NCBI GenBank assembly: GCA_017431785.1
Contig: JAFRKJ010000050.1
Location: forward strand, 1 to 62,428
Direction of reading: 5' to 3'
Origin: Bacillota bacterium
GTDB lineage: Bacteria > Bacillota > Clostridia > Peptostreptococcales > Anaerovoracaceae
Length of the DNA: 62,428 nucleotides
Each line of letters begins with the position of its first letter. Position 1 is the stretch's first letter. A model generated the notes under the pieces. The model was not told the origin of the DNA. It was given only the letters and a program-made list of their open reading frames with translations, and searched no databases. This document shows positions 23,536 through 53,597 of the stretch, piece by piece. The translations under genes were made by a program, and so were the position numbers.

Positions 23536-24345
23536 TCACTCGACGGACAGGATGCTGCCGATATCCTCCAGGGCGTAATCCTCAAACCAGACAGGCAGTA
23601 TATTGCGGCTTTTGATGAATTCCGTAATAGCAGCAAAGTCAGGATGGACACTGAGATCACCGTTGAAGACAATTGTCCTCTGGTCAGTCATCTCATCGTT
23701 GTTCACATAGATATGTCCGGCAGTACCGCCGATAAATCCCGTCTTAAAGCCTTTGAGCTTGATGCTGCCATTACTGATTTTGAGCACTTTGGCGCCATTG
23801 GCTTCCAGAGGTTTGGCGATAGCGTCATCAGAGACAATAAAAGAGTTATCGTCAACTGGCAGACACATACATCTGGTATACCCCTGGCGGACGCCGAGAA
23901 TCTTGATATCCCTGTGGTCACCTTCCTCGGGCAGTCTGTGCAGACTCTTGTGCCACATAATCATCGCATCTTTCAGTTCCGGATCTGTCTTTTCGACCAG
24001 GTGCACCACGTAATTTCTGGTGCAGACAGCATTGTAGATAATGTCCTGAGGATAAGCGACGGCCAGTTTCTCCACGTCACCGAAGAAGATACCCGCTTCA
24101 CTCCAGAGCCCAAGCTGGCACATGTAGATATCCGGGTGTGTGGCAATGCGGGGATCCACATGGACAGGGCGTGTTGGGTGAAGCTTGCCGTCTTCTGCCC
24201 GTGCAAGCCCCAGAGCGGCATTGATATCCGAGGTGTGTTCGTTGATGATTCCGTATTCCGTTACCGTATTCAATTCATATCCTTGCTGGGCGAGAAACCG
24301 AACCAGGGAACTGCCGGCGAGGCGTGATACATATACTTTCTTCAT
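23536..24345 (-). CDS. Conserved hypothetical protein, GME-fold-like (DUF6873 type)
   Basis: This 269-residue protein shows repeated beta-strand segments with HxD-like turns (HPDIYMCQLGLW, TRCMCLPVDDNSFIVSDDAIAKPLEANGAKV, FIGGTAGHIYVNNDE). From memory it fits DUF6873, described as having the fold of guanidino-group-modifying enzymes; no enzyme activity is known to me. The late GGTAGHIYVN segment would be the most conserved. The ATG at 24343-24345 has no ribosome site, and TATAAT lies exactly six bases before it, so the message appears leaderless. Confidence 0.6.
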   Translation of the reverse strand: MKKVYVSRLAGSSLVRFLAQQGYELNTVTEYGIINEHTSDINAALGLARAEDGKLHPTRPVHVDPRIATHPDIYMCQLGLWSEAGIFFGDVEKLAVAYPQDIIYNAVCTRNYVVHLVEKTDPELKDAMIMWHKSLHRLPEEGDHRDIKILGVRQGYTRCMCLPVDDNSFIVSDDAIAKPLEANGAKVLKISNGSIKLKGFKTGFIGGTAGHIYVNNDEMTDQRTIVFNGDLSVHPDFAAITEFIKSRNILPVWFEDYALEDIGSILSVE

Positions 24346-24351
24346 GGTTTT

Positions 24352-24357
24352 ATTATA
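24352..24357 (-). promoter_or_regulatory. -10 element of a leaderless gene (minus strand)
   Basis: TATAAT on the minus strand, six bases (AAAACC) before the ATG of the gene ending at 24345. Confidence 0.6.
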
Positions 24358-24383
24358 AAAGGAAGAGGTTGCCTTTGCAAATC

Positions 24384-24394
24384 TGTGCTATACT
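24384..24394 (+). promoter_or_regulatory. Extended -10 element of ung, leaderless layout
   Basis: TGTG-C-TATACT, with exactly six bases (GTACCC) before the ung ATG at 24401 and no ribosome site. Confidence 0.6.
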
Positions 24395-24400
24395 GTACCC

Positions 24401-25072
24401 ATGGTTGAAATAGGTAACAGCTGGGACGATGTTCTCAGAGGAGAATTCGAAAAAGAGTACTATCAGGAGCTCAGAGCCTTTCTGAAAGAGGAATATGCGG
24501 CGCACAGGGTTTATCCGCCGATGGACAGCATATTCCGGGCGCTGAAGGAAACACCCTACGATAAGGTCAAAGCCGTGATCATCGGACAGGATCCCTACCA
24601 TGAACCGGGTCAGGCGCAGGGCCTTTGTTTTTCTGTACCAAAAGGCATCAAACAGCCGCCTTCTCTTGTAAATATCTTTAAGGAGATGCGGGCGGATCTG
24701 GGCATCACGCCGCCGTCTCACGGCAATCTCGAAAGCTGGGCAAGAGAGGGGGTCCTTCTTCTCAATGCTGTTCTTACCGTGCGCGAGCATGAAGCCAACT
24801 CTCACAAAGGCAAAGGGTGGGAGCAGTTCACGGACAAGGTGATCAGCCTGCTCAACGAGAGGGAAGATCCTGTCGTATTCATTCTGTGGGGCGCCAATGC
24901 AAAGGCAAAAGCAGCCCTCGTGACCAACGACAGGCACTGTATCATCACCGGGGCTCATCCGAGTCCGCTTTCTGCCCACAACGGATTCTGGGGCGGAAGA
25001 TACTTCTCCAAAACCAATGAATTTCTGGAAGAGAAAGGTTATGAACCAATCAATTGGAGGATAGCTGAGTAA
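24401..25072 (+). CDS. ung: Uracil-DNA glycosylase
   Basis: Ung removes uracil from DNA in base excision repair. The 223-residue protein has the water-activating GQDPYHEPGQAQGLCFS near residue 62, LLLNAVLTVREHEANSHKG near 122 and HPSPLSAHNGFWGGRYFS near 187. All family 1 key residues appear present. No ribosome site precedes ATG 24401; the -10 lies six bases upstream. Its stop overlaps the start of the next gene by one base (TAATG), so a lysine-exporter-like gene is co-translated. Confidence 0.95.
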   Translation: MVEIGNSWDDVLRGEFEKEYYQELRAFLKEEYAAHRVYPPMDSIFRALKETPYDKVKAVIIGQDPYHEPGQAQGLCFSVPKGIKQPPSLVNIFKEMRADLGITPPSHGNLESWAREGVLLLNAVLTVREHEANSHKGKGWEQFTDKVISLLNEREDPVVFILWGANAKAKAALVTNDRHCIITGAHPSPLSAHNGFWGGRYFSKTNEFLEEKGYEPINWRIAE

Positions 25073-34941: not shown

Positions 34942-36354
34942 TTAGTAGTGGATGATGACGATTGTTCCTACACTTACCATCTTATACAGTTCGCCGGCCT
35001 TGGCAGGAGGCAGATTGACACATCCGTGGCTGCCGCTGTAAATGTAGATGTCACCACCGAAATTGGATCTCCAGCTGGCATCGTGCAGACCATAGCTGCC
35101 GCCGAGGAACGGCATCCAGTAGCTGACGAAGCTCTCGTAGTAAGTCTTACTCTTTTTCTTGCCGCCGCCTCTTAGAATAACGTTGCGGGACATTCCGCCG
35201 TTGATACTGTAGACACCGGTCGGTGTGCTGTGACCTGCAACCTTACATCCGGATACACAGTCGCATTCAAACCGTTTTTTCCCGTTTTCAAAATAGACGA
35301 CATGCTGCTTGGTCAGATCCACATCGATATATGTGTTTCCGACTTCGAGTGTCTTGGAGTATTCACCTTGTCCCTTTTGTGAGAAGACCGGTTCACGGTC
35401 AACGTCTTCATGGGAGTTGATGTCTTCCGCCAGCTGCTCGGCTTCTGCTTCTTCATCAACGATCCAGCCATAGTTGCCACCGCTGACCTTGAAGGTCTTT
35501 CCGGTCAAGGACGTGAATTCAAGCTCAGAGCCGATGACGTCATATTCGGCCTTTAATGCCTTTGCGAAATTCGCGACCTTTTCAGGATCAGCTTCGCCGG
35601 AGAAGTCGTCTTTCATCAGATTATTCAGCTCAACCGGGCTCAGAGTGAAGCTCTCTTTTCCGAGCTGGTAGTGAATCTTCTGATTCAGATATTTCTGGCA
35701 GAAGGCCTGCTCTTTGAGCAACTCCGGATCATCGCTTTTGACCTTCGGCGTCGAATAATACGCGTTTTCATCGAATTCGAATCTTGTGTTTCCTATAGAA
35801 ATGGCGTGGAGAATATCGTCAAGATACGCCTCCTCGTCAGTTTTGTTTCCGTATACTTCAGGAATGATAGGGAAGGATGGATCCTCCATATCGATGTATG
35901 CATCCTGCGTTTCCGTAATGGTTCCGTGCTGGAGAAAAGCAGAATTTTTGACTCTGTCTGCGAAGTCATCGCCGCACTCAGATACATTCATCGCGATGCG
36001 GGCACTGATAGGCAGACGGAAATAATGTCCGAGTGCAGCAGCAAGGAGATGATCCTTCTTGACGTCTTTCAGCTGATCTTCAATGTCATAGGTGCAGCCG
36101 AAGTCAGTATAATCTGCGAGAGTTTCACCAAGCTTTCCAACGACCTGCAGATGACCGGCGTTCTGTGCCTCTGTCAGTGCAGCTTCCGCTTCCTCATAGG
36201 TAAGACCGGAACAGTCCACCCCGTTGATGGTCATTCTGTCAGGCATGCTGTCTGCCTGGTATTCATCAGAAAATGCGTATACAATTGTTGCTACGCCTGC
36301 TGCTGCAGCCAGAAAAACTACAATAGCGGCTAAAATCATCAGTGTCTTTTTCAT
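34942..36354 (-). CDS. L,D-transpeptidase with YkuD catalytic domain
   Basis: This 470-residue cell-wall enzyme has an N-terminal signal anchor (residues 4-28), a long extracellular part with a beta/alpha peptidoglycan-binding-like region (TINGVDCSGLTYEEAEAALTEA near 43), and a C-terminal YkuD domain with GGSYGLHDASW near residue 420 and the catalytic SHGCVNLPP near 443 (Cys about 445). It would form 3-3 cross-links. The start is ATG 36352-36354; TATACT lies seven bases before it and no ribosome site is seen, so a leaderless start is likely. Divergent from dnaE. Confidence 0.9.
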   Translation of the reverse strand: MKKTLMILAAIVVFLAAAAGVATIVYAFSDEYQADSMPDRMTINGVDCSGLTYEEAEAALTEAQNAGHLQVVGKLGETLADYTDFGCTYDIEDQLKDVKKDHLLAAALGHYFRLPISARIAMNVSECGDDFADRVKNSAFLQHGTITETQDAYIDMEDPSFPIIPEVYGNKTDEEAYLDDILHAISIGNTRFEFDENAYYSTPKVKSDDPELLKEQAFCQKYLNQKIHYQLGKESFTLSPVELNNLMKDDFSGEADPEKVANFAKALKAEYDVIGSELEFTSLTGKTFKVSGGNYGWIVDEEAEAEQLAEDINSHEDVDREPVFSQKGQGEYSKTLEVGNTYIDVDLTKQHVVYFENGKKRFECDCVSGCKVAGHSTPTGVYSINGGMSRNVILRGGGKKKSKTYYESFVSYWMPFLGGSYGLHDASWRSNFGGDIYIYSGSHGCVNLPPAKAGELYKMVSVGTIVIIHY

Positions 36355-36361
36355 AATGTAT

Positions 36362-36367
36362 AGTATA
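36362..36367 (-). promoter_or_regulatory. -10 element of the L,D-transpeptidase gene, leaderless layout
   Basis: TATACT on the minus strand, seven bases before the ATG; no ribosome site. Confidence 0.5.
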
Positions 36368-36396: not shown

Positions 36397-36407
36397 TGTG
36401 GTATAAT
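36397..36407 (+). promoter_or_regulatory. Extended -10 element of dnaE, leaderless layout
   Basis: TGTG-G-TATAAT with exactly six bases (CTCACC) before the dnaE ATG at 36414. Confidence 0.65.
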
Positions 36408-36413
36408 CTCACC

Positions 36414-39400
36414 ATGGCTTTTACACATTTACACGTACACACTGAATACAGCCTTCTCGACGGTGCTGCGCGCATCAAAGATGTCGTCGCACGGGCGAAG
36501 GAGCTGGGTATGGACTCCCTGGCAATCACGGACCACGGGGTCATGTTTGGCGTAATCGATTTCTACAGAGCCTGCAAAGCGGAAGGCATCAAACCGATTA
36601 TCGGATGCGAAGTCTATACGGCTGCGCGGACAAGATTCGACAAGGATGCAGAGAAAGACAAAGTTATGAGCCATCTGATTCTCCTTGCCGAAAACAACAC
36701 CGGTTACAAAAATCTGATGAAAATCGTTTCCGAGGGCTTTAGAAACGGTTTTTACTACAAGCCGAGAGTGGATAAGGAAGTACTCCGGCAGTACAGTGAA
36801 GGCATCATCGCCACATCGGCGTGCCTGGCAGGAGCCGTGCAGAGAAATCTCCTCAATGGAGATTATGAGAGCGCCAAGCGCGAAGTCCTGGAGATGCTGG
36901 ACATCTTCGGGGAAGGGAACTACTTTCTGGAGCTGCAGGACCAGGGCCTTGAGGAGGAAGCAAGAATACTGCCCGACATGAAGAGGCTCCATGAGGAGAC
37001 GGGCATTCCTTTCATTGCCACAAATGACGTGCATTATGTGCGGCAGGAGGATGCAGAGGCGCAGGACGTTCTCATGTGCATCCAGACTGCAACAACTATC
37101 GACGAAGAAAACAGGATGCGTTTTGCAAACGATCAGTTCTATCTCAAATCAGAAGAGGAGATGAGACGGATCTTCTCGAACACCCCGGAAGCTATAGATA
37201 ACACAGCGAAAATCGCGGAGCGCTGCAACGTGGAATTCACCTTCGGCGAGCTTCATCTGCCGGAATTCCATGCGCCGGACGGCAAAACCAACAAAGAATA
37301 TCTGAGGGAGCTCTGTCAGAAGGGACTGATGGAGAGATACCCTCAGTCGCATATCATACACCAGGAGCGTCTTGACTACGAACTTGAGACCATAGAGAAC
37401 ATGGGGTACGTGGAGTACTTCCTCATCGTCTGGGATTTCATCAACTACGCCAAGAGCCAGGGCATCATGGTCGGACCGGGCAGAGGCTCTGCCGCCGGGT
37501 CCATCGTTGCCTACACACTGCGGATCACCGACATCGATCCGGTGAAGTATGGGCTGATTTTCGAACGTTTCCTCAATCCGGAGCGCGTCAGCATGCCTGA
37601 TATCGACATCGACTTCTGCTATGAGAGACGCGGCGAAGTCATCGATTACGTTACGGAGAAATACGGTAAGGACAACGTATCCCAGATCATCACTTTCGGT
37701 ACCATGAAAGCTAAGCAGGCCGTCAGGGATGTCGGCCGTGTGCTCAATGTCAGCTACCAGGATACAGATGCCATTGCAAAGGCAATCCCGTTTGCCCTGA
37801 AGATGACTATCGACAAAGCCCTTCAGACGAGTCCTGACTTTAAGAAGATGTACGATGAGGATGAGACGACCCATAGGGTCGTGGATATGGCAAGAGCCAT
37901 TGAAGGCATGCCTCGTCACGCCTCGACCCATGCGGCGGGCGTGGTAATCTCGAGACTGCCCCTTGATGAATACGTGCCGCTCTATCTTTCGGATAAGGGG
38001 CTGTCCACCCAGTTCAACATGACGACCATCGAGGAACTGGGACTTCTGAAGATGGACTTTCTGGGGTTGAGAAACCTGACGATCATCAGAGATGCTCTGG
38101 AGATGATCAAGGAAAATCACGGCGTCGATATCGATTTCGCATCCATGGAATATGACGATCCTGCCGTATATGATACAATAGCCAAGGGTAATACACAGGG
38201 AATCTTCCAGTTGGAAAGCGGAGGCATGACATCCTTTATGAAGAACCTCAAACCGGACTGCTTCGAAGATATCGTTGCGGGAATCGCCCTTTACCGTCCG
38301 GGTCCGATGGCATCCATTCCAACATACATAGATAACAAGAAAAACCCGGGGCACGTTCAGTATATCCATGAGTCCCTGAGGCCGATCCTCGGTGTCACAT
38401 ACGGATGCATGGTTTATCAGGAACAGGTTATGCAGATCGTGCGTGATCTTGGTGGATACTCATATGGACGTTCAGATCTGGTGCGCCGAGCCATGTCCAA
38501 GAAGAAAATGGACGTCATGCTGGAAGAAAAGGAGTATTTCATCAACGGAAAGACAGATGAAAATGGAAATGTTGAGATTTCCGGCTGCGTGAGAAACGGC
38601 GTACCACGACATGCGGCAGAAGAAATCTTCAATCAGATGATTTCCTTCGCTGAGTATGCTTTTAATAAATCCCATGCAGCAGCCTACGCAGTGCTCGCCT
38701 ATGAGACGAGTTATCTGAAGACCCACTATCCTGTGGAATTCATGGCAGCGCTCATGACTTCCGTAATGGGTGATACAAAGGCCATGTCCATGTACATCAG
38801 AAACTGCAGGGAGATGGGTATCGACGTTCTTCCGCCGGATGTCAATGAAAGCGGCAAGAAGTTTACCGTAGTCTATGACCCGGAGGATACAGAGAAGAAA
38901 CATGGGAAGATACGATTTGGTCTTCTGGGCGTCAAAAATATGGGTGAAGGCCCAATTGATGCCATCATCGAGGCGAGAGAGCAGAAAGGGAAACCTTCCG
39001 ACATCTTCCGGTTCATTGAGAACCTTGACATACACCGCATCAACAAGAAGGCAGTAGAGAGTCTGATCAAATCCGGCGCCATGGATTGCCTGAACAAAAA
39101 CAGGGCGGCCCATTTCGGAATCTATGAATCTCTCATGGATGCGGCCCAGAGCTCTGCGAAGCACAACATTGCAGGACAGCTTTCTTTGTTCCAGACAAAT
39201 GCGGAAGCTCTGGATGAGTCTGTGAACCATAGGCTCCCTGATGTGAAGAACTTCCCGCCGGAAGAGCTTCTGGCTCAGGAAAAAGAAGTGCTGGGTGTAT
39301 ACCTGACGGCACATCCGCTGGATGAATACGCAGATATCATCAGCCGTACGGTCAGTGTCACATCAGCGGATCTGGCGGAGGTGCTGGCCAACGAGGAGGA

Positions 39401-44811: not shown

Positions 44812-44817
44812 TATAAT
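44812..44817 (+). promoter_or_regulatory. -10 element of phoH, leaderless layout
   Basis: TATAAT with six bases (AATGAT) before ATG 44824; no ribosome site. Confidence 0.55.
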
Positions 44818-44823
44818 AATGAT

Positions 44824-45888
44824 ATGGAAAAAAAAATAGATTTCAATATGGACAGAGCAGCAATCGAAACCATCCCGTTAGATGACAGTGTAGACAGACG
44901 GGAACTTTTTGGCGGGATGGATCAGAATCTTCTAAATATAGAAGATCTGCTCGGCGTAACAATTATTCAGCGCAGCGACGGTCTGCTCATCAAAGACGGA
45001 CAGGGCGCAGTAGATGGCGCACCGGCAGGTCATGAAGCCGCCGAAAGAGTGCACAGGGCAGCTGCGATACTGAAGGAAATGGTTGAAACAGTAAGAAAAG
45101 GAGAAGTATTGGATCAGCAGAAAGCAGGGTATATCACAGATCTGGCGGAGAGCGGCATCTCCTACAGCAGACAGGCAGAGAGTAGCCATCTGGATAAGGA
45201 GATCATCTGTTTCACACATGATGGCAAGCCGCTCAGACCGAAGACCATCGGACAGAAGGAATACGTTAAAACCATCAGAAACAAAGATATTGTATTTGGC
45301 ATCGGACCGGCAGGAACAGGGAAAACCTATATTGCCGTAGCGATGGCAGTACAGGCGTTCAAGAATAAAGATGTGCAGAAAATCATACTGGCCAGGCCTG
45401 CCGTAGAAGCGGGGGAGAGACTGGGATTCTTGCCTGGTGATCTTCAGGAAAAAGTCGATCCGTACCTCAGGCCTCTTTATGATGCGCTTTATGACGTGCT
45501 GGGTAGGGAAAGTGCGCTCAGGCTGAAAGAAAAAGAAATCATCGAAGTTGTTCCGCTGGCCTATATGAGGGGAAGAACACTGGACAATTCCTTTATCATC
45601 CTGGATGAGGCCCAGAACACTACACCGGAACAGATGAAGATGTTTCTGACCAGAATGGGATTCGGGTCAAAGGTGGTCGTGACCGGAGATATCACCCAGA
45701 TCGACCTTCCGAGAGGAAAGAAATCAGGACTTATCGAAGCGCGTAAGGTTCTGAGGGACGTTGAAGATATCGGATTCTGTTATCTGAAGGAAGTGGATGT
45801 CGTAAGACATCAGCTCGTCAAGAAAGTCATCAGCGCATATGATAAGTATTACAGAGCTCATCCGCCTGCCGAAGAAGAGGAGAAGTAA
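44824..45888 (+). CDS. phoH: PhoH-like ATPase
   Basis: The product is 354 residues: an N-terminal KH-like part, then a PhoH ATPase with Walker A FGIGPAGTGKTYIAVAMA near residue 160, ARPAVEAGERLGFLPGDL near 195, ILDEAQNTTPEQMKMFLTRMG near 260. PhoH proteins are RNA-linked ATPases and travel with ybeY. It is encoded next to ybeY (1-base overlap). The start is ATG 44824; a GTG at 44788 in frame is an alternative but would be upstream of the -10 element. Confidence 0.93.
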   Translation: MEKKIDFNMDRAAIETIPLDDSVDRRELFGGMDQNLLNIEDLLGVTIIQRSDGLLIKDGQGAVDGAPAGHEAAERVHRAAAILKEMVETVRKGEVLDQQKAGYITDLAESGISYSRQAESSHLDKEIICFTHDGKPLRPKTIGQKEYVKTIRNKDIVFGIGPAGTGKTYIAVAMAVQAFKNKDVQKIILARPAVEAGERLGFLPGDLQEKVDPYLRPLYDALYDVLGRESALRLKEKEIIEVVPLAYMRGRTLDNSFIILDEAQNTTPEQMKMFLTRMGFGSKVVVTGDITQIDLPRGKKSGLIEARKVLRDVEDIGFCYLKEVDVVRHQLVKKVISAYDKYYRAHPPAEEEEK

Positions 45889-53103: not shown

Positions 53104-53580
53104 TTACGTTACTGCGACGACTCCATAGGTGACCAGGAAGACGACGATTCCGGCTGCAACGACGCCTGCAAAGATCACAGGAACGGCATTTCTCAGTCGC
53201 AGATTGAAGAAGGCGGCTACCAGTGAACCGGTCCATGCGCCGGTTCCTGGCAGTGGAACGGCGACGAGCAGGAACAATCCGAACATTTCATATTTAACGA
53301 TTTTCTCACCGCCCTTGGCCGCTTTCTCTTCCAGTTTTGTTGCGATTCTGTCGAATTTCTCGAAACGGTGCATCCAGTTTAGAATTCGACGGATAAAAAT
53401 AATGATGAATGGTACCGGAACCATGTTGCCGATAATACTGACAACCAGAGAAGTCACAGGGGACAGTCCCATGCCTACACCAATAGGCAGCGCGCCCCTG
53501 AGTTCTATGACCGGAACCATTGAAATCAGAAATGTAGCAAGAAGTTTTCCTGTATATGTTGTCGTGAACCAAGTAATCAT
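53104..53580 (-). CDS. Small multi-drug export family protein
   Basis: The 158-residue protein has four hydrophobic segments and the PF06695-type motifs MVPVIELRGALPIG near residue 20, VPVPFIIIFIRRILNWM near 50, VAVPLPGTGAWTGSLVAAFF near 105. These proteins are small integral membrane proteins of uncertain substrate. The start ATG 53580 has TATAAT exactly six bases upstream in a TRTGN context and no ribosome site; an upstream ATG at 53604 lies inside the promoter. Convergent with ppdK. Confidence 0.8.
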   Translation of the reverse strand: MITWFTTTYTGKLLATFLISMVPVIELRGALPIGVGMGLSPVTSLVVSIIGNMVPVPFIIIFIRRILNWMHRFEKFDRIATKLEEKAAKGGEKIVKYEMFGLFLLVAVPLPGTGAWTGSLVAAFFNLRLRNAVPVIFAGVVAAGIVVFLVTYGVVAVT

Positions 53581-53586
53581 AGGCAG

Positions 53587-53597
53587 ATTATAACATA
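53587..53597 (-). promoter_or_regulatory. Extended -10 element of a leaderless gene (minus strand)
   Basis: On the minus strand TATG-T-TATAAT then CTGCCT then ATG (53580). Confidence 0.65.

Follow-up and report, generated by a model that had tools for sequence, protein, structure and literature searches.

The ung gene and the DUF6873 gene that diverges from it each have a −10 hexamer exactly six bases before the ATG, and these and similar genes are very probably transcribed from sigma-A promoters in which +1 is the A of AUG, so that their mRNAs would be leaderless. This reading draws on four well supported observations, namely the spacing, its excess across the genome, its conservation in near relatives and the absence of ribosome sites. 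The window (the whole stretch of DNA that was analysed, 62,428 nucleotides) has the following features at 24343..24403 and in the flanking genes; L001–L004 are the loci of the four nearest ung relatives, and the gap is the number of bases between hexamer and start codon.

23536-24345, minus strand: DUF6873 gene (PF21778 match, E=1.2e-42), divergent from ung
24343..24345, minus strand: ATG of the DUF6873 gene, the same start in L001–L004; predicted first base of the mRNA, 24345
24352..24357, minus strand: −10 TATAAT of the DUF6873 gene, spacer AAAACC, gap 6 to the ATG; gap kept in L001–L004
24375..24380, minus strand: candidate −35 TTGCAA of the DUF6873 gene, 17 bp from TATAAT, found by eye; TTTGCAA in L001–L004
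24384..24388, plus strand: extended −10 TGTGC of ung, found by eye; TGn ahead of the −10 in L001–L004
24389..24394, plus strand: −10 TATACT of ung, spacer GTACCC, gap 6 to the ATG; gap kept in L001–L004 and L029
24401..24403, plus strand: ATG of ung, predicted first base of the mRNA, 24401; in many relatives a Shine-Dalgarno sequence leads the orthologous ATG
24401-25072, plus strand: ung (PF03167, UDG domain)

The two ATGs are 55 bp apart. An earlier note had described TATAAT-AAAACC-ATG on the minus strand and TATACT-GTACCC-ATG before ung, neither with a ribosome site, and both were found as claimed; GGAG, GAGG and AGGA are absent from the usual position ahead of the DUF6873 gene and, judged by eye, ahead of ung. 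The −10 hexamer ordinarily spans −12 to −7. In both genes its first T is at −12 from the A of the ATG, which gives the ordinary distance between −10 and +1, and RNA polymerase would therefore most likely start at that A. TGn precedes the −10 of ung, for which no good −35 was seen by eye, and is absent at the DUF6873 gene, which carries the −35-like TTGCAA at 17 bp. The sequence TTTGCAA at 24374-24380 lies between both promoters and is also found in L001–L004; since TTGCAA, the possible minus-strand −35, is palindromic, it may also be a regulator site.

We infer the transcription start, the leaderless message and the ribosome mechanism as follows. The 55-bp gap would consist of two back-to-back sigma-A promoters, an extended −10 promoter (TGTGC TATACT) for ung and TTGCAA-N17-TATAAT for the DUF6873 gene. 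RNA polymerase would initiate at the A of each ATG to give a 5′-ppp-AUG message with no leader, and ribosomes would need no Shine-Dalgarno pairing to begin translation at the 5′ AUG itself. The arrangement with exact TATAAT is present at about 26 gene starts genome-wide, including those of the DUF6873, dnaE and phoH genes and the gene at 53580.

Four further sites in the window, reported in the earlier note with N6 spacing at dnaE, phoH and 53580 and N7 at 36354, were all located at those spacings. G148–G151 are the genomes of L001–L004.

36352..36367, minus strand: TATACT-N7-ATG of a YkuD/PG_binding_4 gene that diverges from dnaE, 59 bp ATG-to-ATG
36402..36416, plus strand: TATAAT-CTCACC-ATG of dnaE, TATAAT at 36402-36407, N6, ATG at 36414; gap 6 shared by G148 and G151, not by G149
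44812..44826, plus strand: TATAAT-AATGAT-ATG of phoH, TATAAT at 44812-44817, ATG at 44824; gap 6 in G148–G151
53578..53592, minus strand: TATAAT-CTGCCT-ATG of a Sm_multidrug_ex gene, TATAAT at 53592-53587, N6; from the window sequence only

The dnaE open reading frame listed by the program begins at an earlier in-frame ATG (36396) that is located within the promoter, and the ATG at 36414 agrees with the conserved N terminus MAFTHLHVH. Hexamers of this kind could be chance A+T-rich sequence, with transcription coming from well upstream and a leader that has no ribosome site, and the window by itself is compatible with such an origin: the one-mismatch pattern has 16 matches as compared with 12.3 expected, and 20 of 100 shuffles reach 16, so that the pattern is not significantly above chance. 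Because the window statistics are not significant, genome-wide and gene-start tests were used.

The genome (2,724,508 bases in 96 contigs, 81% complete) contains 55 exact TATAAT-N6-ATG sites, as compared with 135 for spacings N8-12 together, or 27 per spacing (p=1.7e-5). The spacings N3 to N12 sum to 307, and for spacings 3, 4, 5 and 7 the mean is about 29. The earlier note had proposed that N6 be compared with adjacent spacings genome-wide, and these counts bear out the excess. Gene starts were sampled from 456,428 bases comprising the window and 20 other stretches, a non-random selection in which a simple codon-score caller identified 318 genes. Ahead of candidate ATGs in this sample, exact TATAAT occurs nine times at gap 6, twice at gap 7 and no more than three times at each remaining gap in the range 0–30. 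With a relaxed hexamer, in which one mismatch was permitted in the middle three bases of TATAAT, there are 14 starts at gap 6 and a mean of 3.2 at other gaps, and TGn precedes the hexamer in seven of the 14. An excess that is specific to one gap argues against chance A+T-rich sequence.

The same counts bear on the exact position of the start. If transcription began 1–5 nt to either side of the A, the stub left on the message could not accommodate a ribosome site, and initiation would be mechanistically almost identical to that on a leaderless message. Sites with gap 7 at the YkuD gene (36354) and in two of its relatives, gap 8 at dnaE of G158 and gap 7 at ung of L077 would fit such starts, but gap 6 dominates (14 relaxed starts as compared with five at gap 7, one at gap 8 and two at gap 5), and a pyrimidine precedes the A in 26 of 26 retained genome sites (see below). 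We regard a start displaced from the A as unlikely for the class, and initiation at the A itself is preferred.

Start codons at gap 6 in the sample are almost exclusively ATG (nine ATG, no GTG and no TTG with exact TATAAT; 14 ATG, two GTG and no TTG with the relaxed hexamer). The earlier note had credited most other genes here with clear GGAGG sites; by a loose test, GGAG, GAGG or AGGA is present before some candidate start in 221 of the 318 called genes. After background subtraction, about 11 of the 318, some 3%, would be of the leaderless type, and the exact-TATAAT set is estimated at about 1% of genes for a genome of this size. Judged from these sequence counts, the leaderless class would be a minor one here, at an estimated 1–3% or so of genes.

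The 55 sites were passed through a gene filter (at least 100 amino acids, a coding score and no upstream coding extension), by which 30 open apparent genes and 25 fail; the failures speak for chance A+T-rich sequence. Four of the 30 were excluded after the fact, leaving 26. In three of them, encoding LGT (L091:4418), a HAD hydrolase (L117) and tRNA_edit (L132), AGGAG or AGGAGG stands before an in-frame ATG 7–18 codons downstream, and this later Shine-Dalgarno-led start is probably the real one. The fourth, an integrase site with a 199-codon open extension upstream, is probably internal. A Shine-Dalgarno sequence of at least five letters before a later in-frame start was found in four of the 30 candidate genes and in five of 267 internal control windows; the fourth such gene is dnaE, in which the downstream start is at codon 32, within the conserved domain. 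Because downstream starts are probably real in three candidates, the motif alone is no proof and miscalls starts. If this were general, the promoters would be true, the proteins would start downstream at Shine-Dalgarno-led codons, and the leaders would be ordinary short ones. For the other 27 candidates the evidence is against it, since dnaE offers only codon 32, three genes have just a four-letter match before GTG or TTG (one upstream), and the first ATG of ung is the Shine-Dalgarno-led start in relatives. As an account of the class, protein starts at downstream codons are very unlikely.

GGAG, GAGG or AGGA was seen at two of the 55 sites, one of them in the retained 26, a scarcity that is partly forced by geometry because the −10 fills the position of the ribosome site. 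A pyrimidine precedes the A of the ATG in all 26 retained sites and in 16 of the 29 others (p=4.7e-5, with the post hoc exclusions); before exclusion, the numbers are 29 of 30 and 13 of 25 (p=1.1e-4). Transcription starts usually have such a pair, with a pyrimidine at −1 and a purine at +1 (PMC4782308). TGn stands before the −10 in 13 of 30 gene sites as compared with four of 25 other sites (p=0.028). Folding energies of the first 40 nt were no different from those of Shine-Dalgarno-led genes (p=0.19), and weak 5′ structure was accordingly rejected as a mark of leaderless genes.

Products with Pfam matches include DnaE, an AddB-like protein, a Y-family polymerase, PhoH, HypF and HypA, together with an S4/pseudouridine synthase, a poly(A)-polymerase-head protein, an MFS transporter, HutD, and LuxR-type and AraC-type regulators. 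The genes for HypF (L096:1819) and HypA (L112), which function in hydrogenase maturation, are both on contig C15, about 16 kb apart, and both have TATAAT-N6-ATG. The UDG-superfamily genes met in the genome are ung and a second one of 166 amino acids (L149:1525-2022), and both have the leaderless arrangement. At about position 14486 of L091, on the minus strand, a TACAAT-N6-ATG start opens a GTPase-like protein of 905 amino acids with the N terminus MSKERRITIGILAHVDAGKTTLSEA, which recalls elongation-factor or ribosomal-protection proteins.

Conservation was compared gene by gene in near relatives. The ung relatives L001–L004, which are 96 to 78% identical, come from two uncultured Clostridiales RUG MAGs, a goat MAG and a horse MAG; all four have TATACT at gap 6 before ung, and the spacer letters vary. 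The DUF6873 gene likewise has gap 6 in all four loci with a match, L001–L004 (five loci were given, and L029 had no match). For phoH, gap 6 is present in the four near genomes, G148, G149, G150 and G151, and in G150 the start codon has shifted inwards by four codons, together with the −10; in the remaining nine of 13 genomes at least one candidate start has a Shine-Dalgarno sequence ahead of it. Starts of dnaE were judged by eye in 12 of the 13 genomes, G150 being left out because it has only a 36% paralogue. Gap 6 occurs in two of three near relatives (G148 and G151) and gap 8 in G158, and no gap motif was found by eye in G149 or in the other eight of these 12 genomes. The YkuD/PG_binding_4 gene, with six loci of which four had a match, has gap 7 in G148 and G151 and is Shine-Dalgarno-led in G149 and G127. 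A third back-to-back pair, in L091, was compared in four loci of the 13: gap 6 is present on both sides in G148 and on one side in G149. The plus-strand gene has it in just one of four relatives, and its divergent partner in two of two with a match (four loci given).

The preservation of hexamer and gap despite changes in the spacer, and the shift of the phoH start codon together with its −10 in G150, are difficult to reconcile with chance A+T-rich sequence, and an upstream origin of transcription would find little room in the three pairs with 45, 55 and 59 bp between ATGs. We consider that alternative extremely improbable. The leaderless reading proposed in the earlier note is supported by the N6 excess together with a spacing that is kept in near relatives while the surrounding letters diverge.

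The class is patchy across the family, with an excess in near relatives, no clear one in G068 and G127 and, for the plain motif, none overall. Counts at N6 and per spacing at N8-12 are 46 and 23.4 in G148, 31 and 15.8 in G150, and 31 and 16 in G151, with a weaker excess in G149 (21 and 15.8). The ratio is thus about 2 in the genome studied here, G148, G150 and G151, and 1.3 in G149 and G152; it is 0.6 to 1.2 in six more distant genomes, and four further genomes were covered for spacings with N6 uncounted and do not enter the ratios. There is no clear N6 excess in G068 (29 as compared with 23 per spacing) and G127 (36 as compared with 40), which carry the same genus label. A family-wide excess of plain TATAAT-N6-ATG was rejected, since 148 genomes have 4244 sites as compared with 4175 per N8-12 spacing (median ratio, 0.98); p<0.001 was obtained in 13 of the 148, including the genome studied here. 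For the motif TG + TATAMT, the 148 genomes do have an N6 excess, with 1069 sites at N6 and 681 at N9, which is swollen by repeats, for example in G008; per genome, N6 is larger in 87, smaller in 43 and equal in 18, and the genome studied here has 22 at N6 and seven at N9. In G008 the sequence TGGTATAATCCGCGCATG recurs at seven sites without change and at about five more in nearly the same form (for example C21:750153, C21:1265526 and C19:250118), which suggests either a repeated element made up of promoter and start or a gene family whose 5′ end was copied.

A wider survey of ung took the best 80 of 589 relatives, from which we removed 11 in which the first aligned residue is not a start codon. 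Among the remaining 69 loci, 42 have a ribosome site, 10 have a −10 at gap 5–7, eight of these at exactly gap 6, and 17 have neither; a −10 at gap 4–9 together with a Shine-Dalgarno sequence was found in none of the 69. Over gaps 0–60 in the same set, TATAAT or TATACT occurs eight times at gap 6, once at gap 7 and no more than twice at any other gap. Near relatives share ancestry, and the eight gap-6 loci are therefore not eight independent events. On a tree of 70 rows, predicted leaderless ung is found in the clade of the window, in L029, in two Christensenella-labelled rows with L077 (gap 7), and in Colivicinus; L053 (TATTAT, gap 5) was not counted as leaderless. At least four changes are needed, three of them forced by well supported branches.

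We propose tentatively, as something short of probable, that leaderless expression in Clostridia is a labile gene-by-gene switch, that ung has switched several times, and that compact divergent pairs exploit the switch. One start codon would alternate between a leader with a ribosome site and a −10 exactly six bases before the AUG, and pairs with 45–59 bp between ATGs would exploit this, since such a distance accommodates two leaderless promoters but not two leaders. Three pairs predicted to be leaderless on both sides were identified, with ATG-to-ATG distances of 45 bp (L091), 55 bp (ung/DUF6873) and 59 bp (dnaE/YkuD). The upstream neighbour is divergent in 16 of the 30 candidate genes and on the same strand in 14; five of these 14 start only 12–54 bp past the preceding gene, whose transcription might extend into them from a promoter lying upstream. 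In the sample used for comparison, 21 divergent pairs account for 42 of the 318 genes. Five of the six closest divergent pairs and two of the 15 others have the leaderless arrangement (p=0.0055), an association that we treat as a lead because the 130-bp cut was set post hoc, one case among the two of 15 is uncertain, and in a short spacer promoters cannot lie far from starts.

In mycobacteria and Deinococcus the leaderless share is far larger and GUG is also used, whereas the genome studied here has a few percent and almost only AUG. A −10 placed a few bases before the start codon is a likeness to the leaderless transcriptomes of Deinococcus. Those of mycobacteria (PMC3898074 and PMC4633059) share it as well, and a leaderless share of 20% or more is given for Deinococcus in the survey of Zheng et al. 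(2011, PMC3160421). That survey describes TA-led genes, which lack a Shine-Dalgarno sequence and have TAnnnT or TATAAT about 12 bp ahead of the start codon, and reports that in low-GC Firmicutes, for example Lactococcus, a TG precedes the −10. It gives a low share for Firmicutes (56 of 209 genomes, mean 4.2%) and assigns these cases to Lactobacillales and Mycoplasma, and its main text has no word beginning with "clostridi". The genes studied here resemble TA-led genes in the −10 about 12 bp before the start, the lack of a Shine-Dalgarno sequence and the low share, and differ from those of the survey in that the host belongs to an uncultured rumen/gut clostridial clade and conservation is seen at the level of orthologues.

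Leaderless messages have also been mapped in clostridia. In C. phytofermentans they make up 4% of intergenic sense starts by measured 5′ ends, and the genes concerned as a rule possess a typical ribosome site and a further start upstream (PMC5171806). About 2–3% of transcripts are leaderless in solventogenic clostridia (PMC9045289), 15 leaderless genes are reported in C. difficile (PMC7438776), and 212 leaderless transcripts are claimed from RNA-seq of C. acetobutylicum (PMC4533764). Translation of leaderless transcripts is reported to be spared by kasugamycin (PMC5230787). The share is minor in these species and here, theirs coming from measured 5′ ends and ours from DNA sequence; unlike the genes of C. 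phytofermentans, the genes described here have no ribosome site, and the spacing between −10 and ATG is kept in near relatives. The earlier note had held that a standing class of leaderless messages in a clostridial genome would be notable. Such a class is supported, but it is a minor one and less notable than claimed, because leaderless messages at a low level were already mapped in the clostridia cited above. A leaderless class with this architecture is thus already known, and the genes described here would be a new member of it in an uncultured clade; among the matches listed from the literature on leaderless genes, none treats this locus by title or abstract.

The authors of the C. phytofermentans study considered it of interest whether leaderless transcription is equally uncommon in close relatives (PMC5171806). 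The present results provide, for an uncultured clade of gut clostridia, a set of predicted leaderless genes that can be recognized from sequence, with several kept in near relatives. The set includes genes of DNA replication and repair, namely dnaE, ung, the AddB-like gene, the Y-family polymerase gene and the second UDG-superfamily gene. Orthologues that are predicted to be leaderless in some genomes and are Shine-Dalgarno-led in others would allow a direct test of how leaders are gained and lost.
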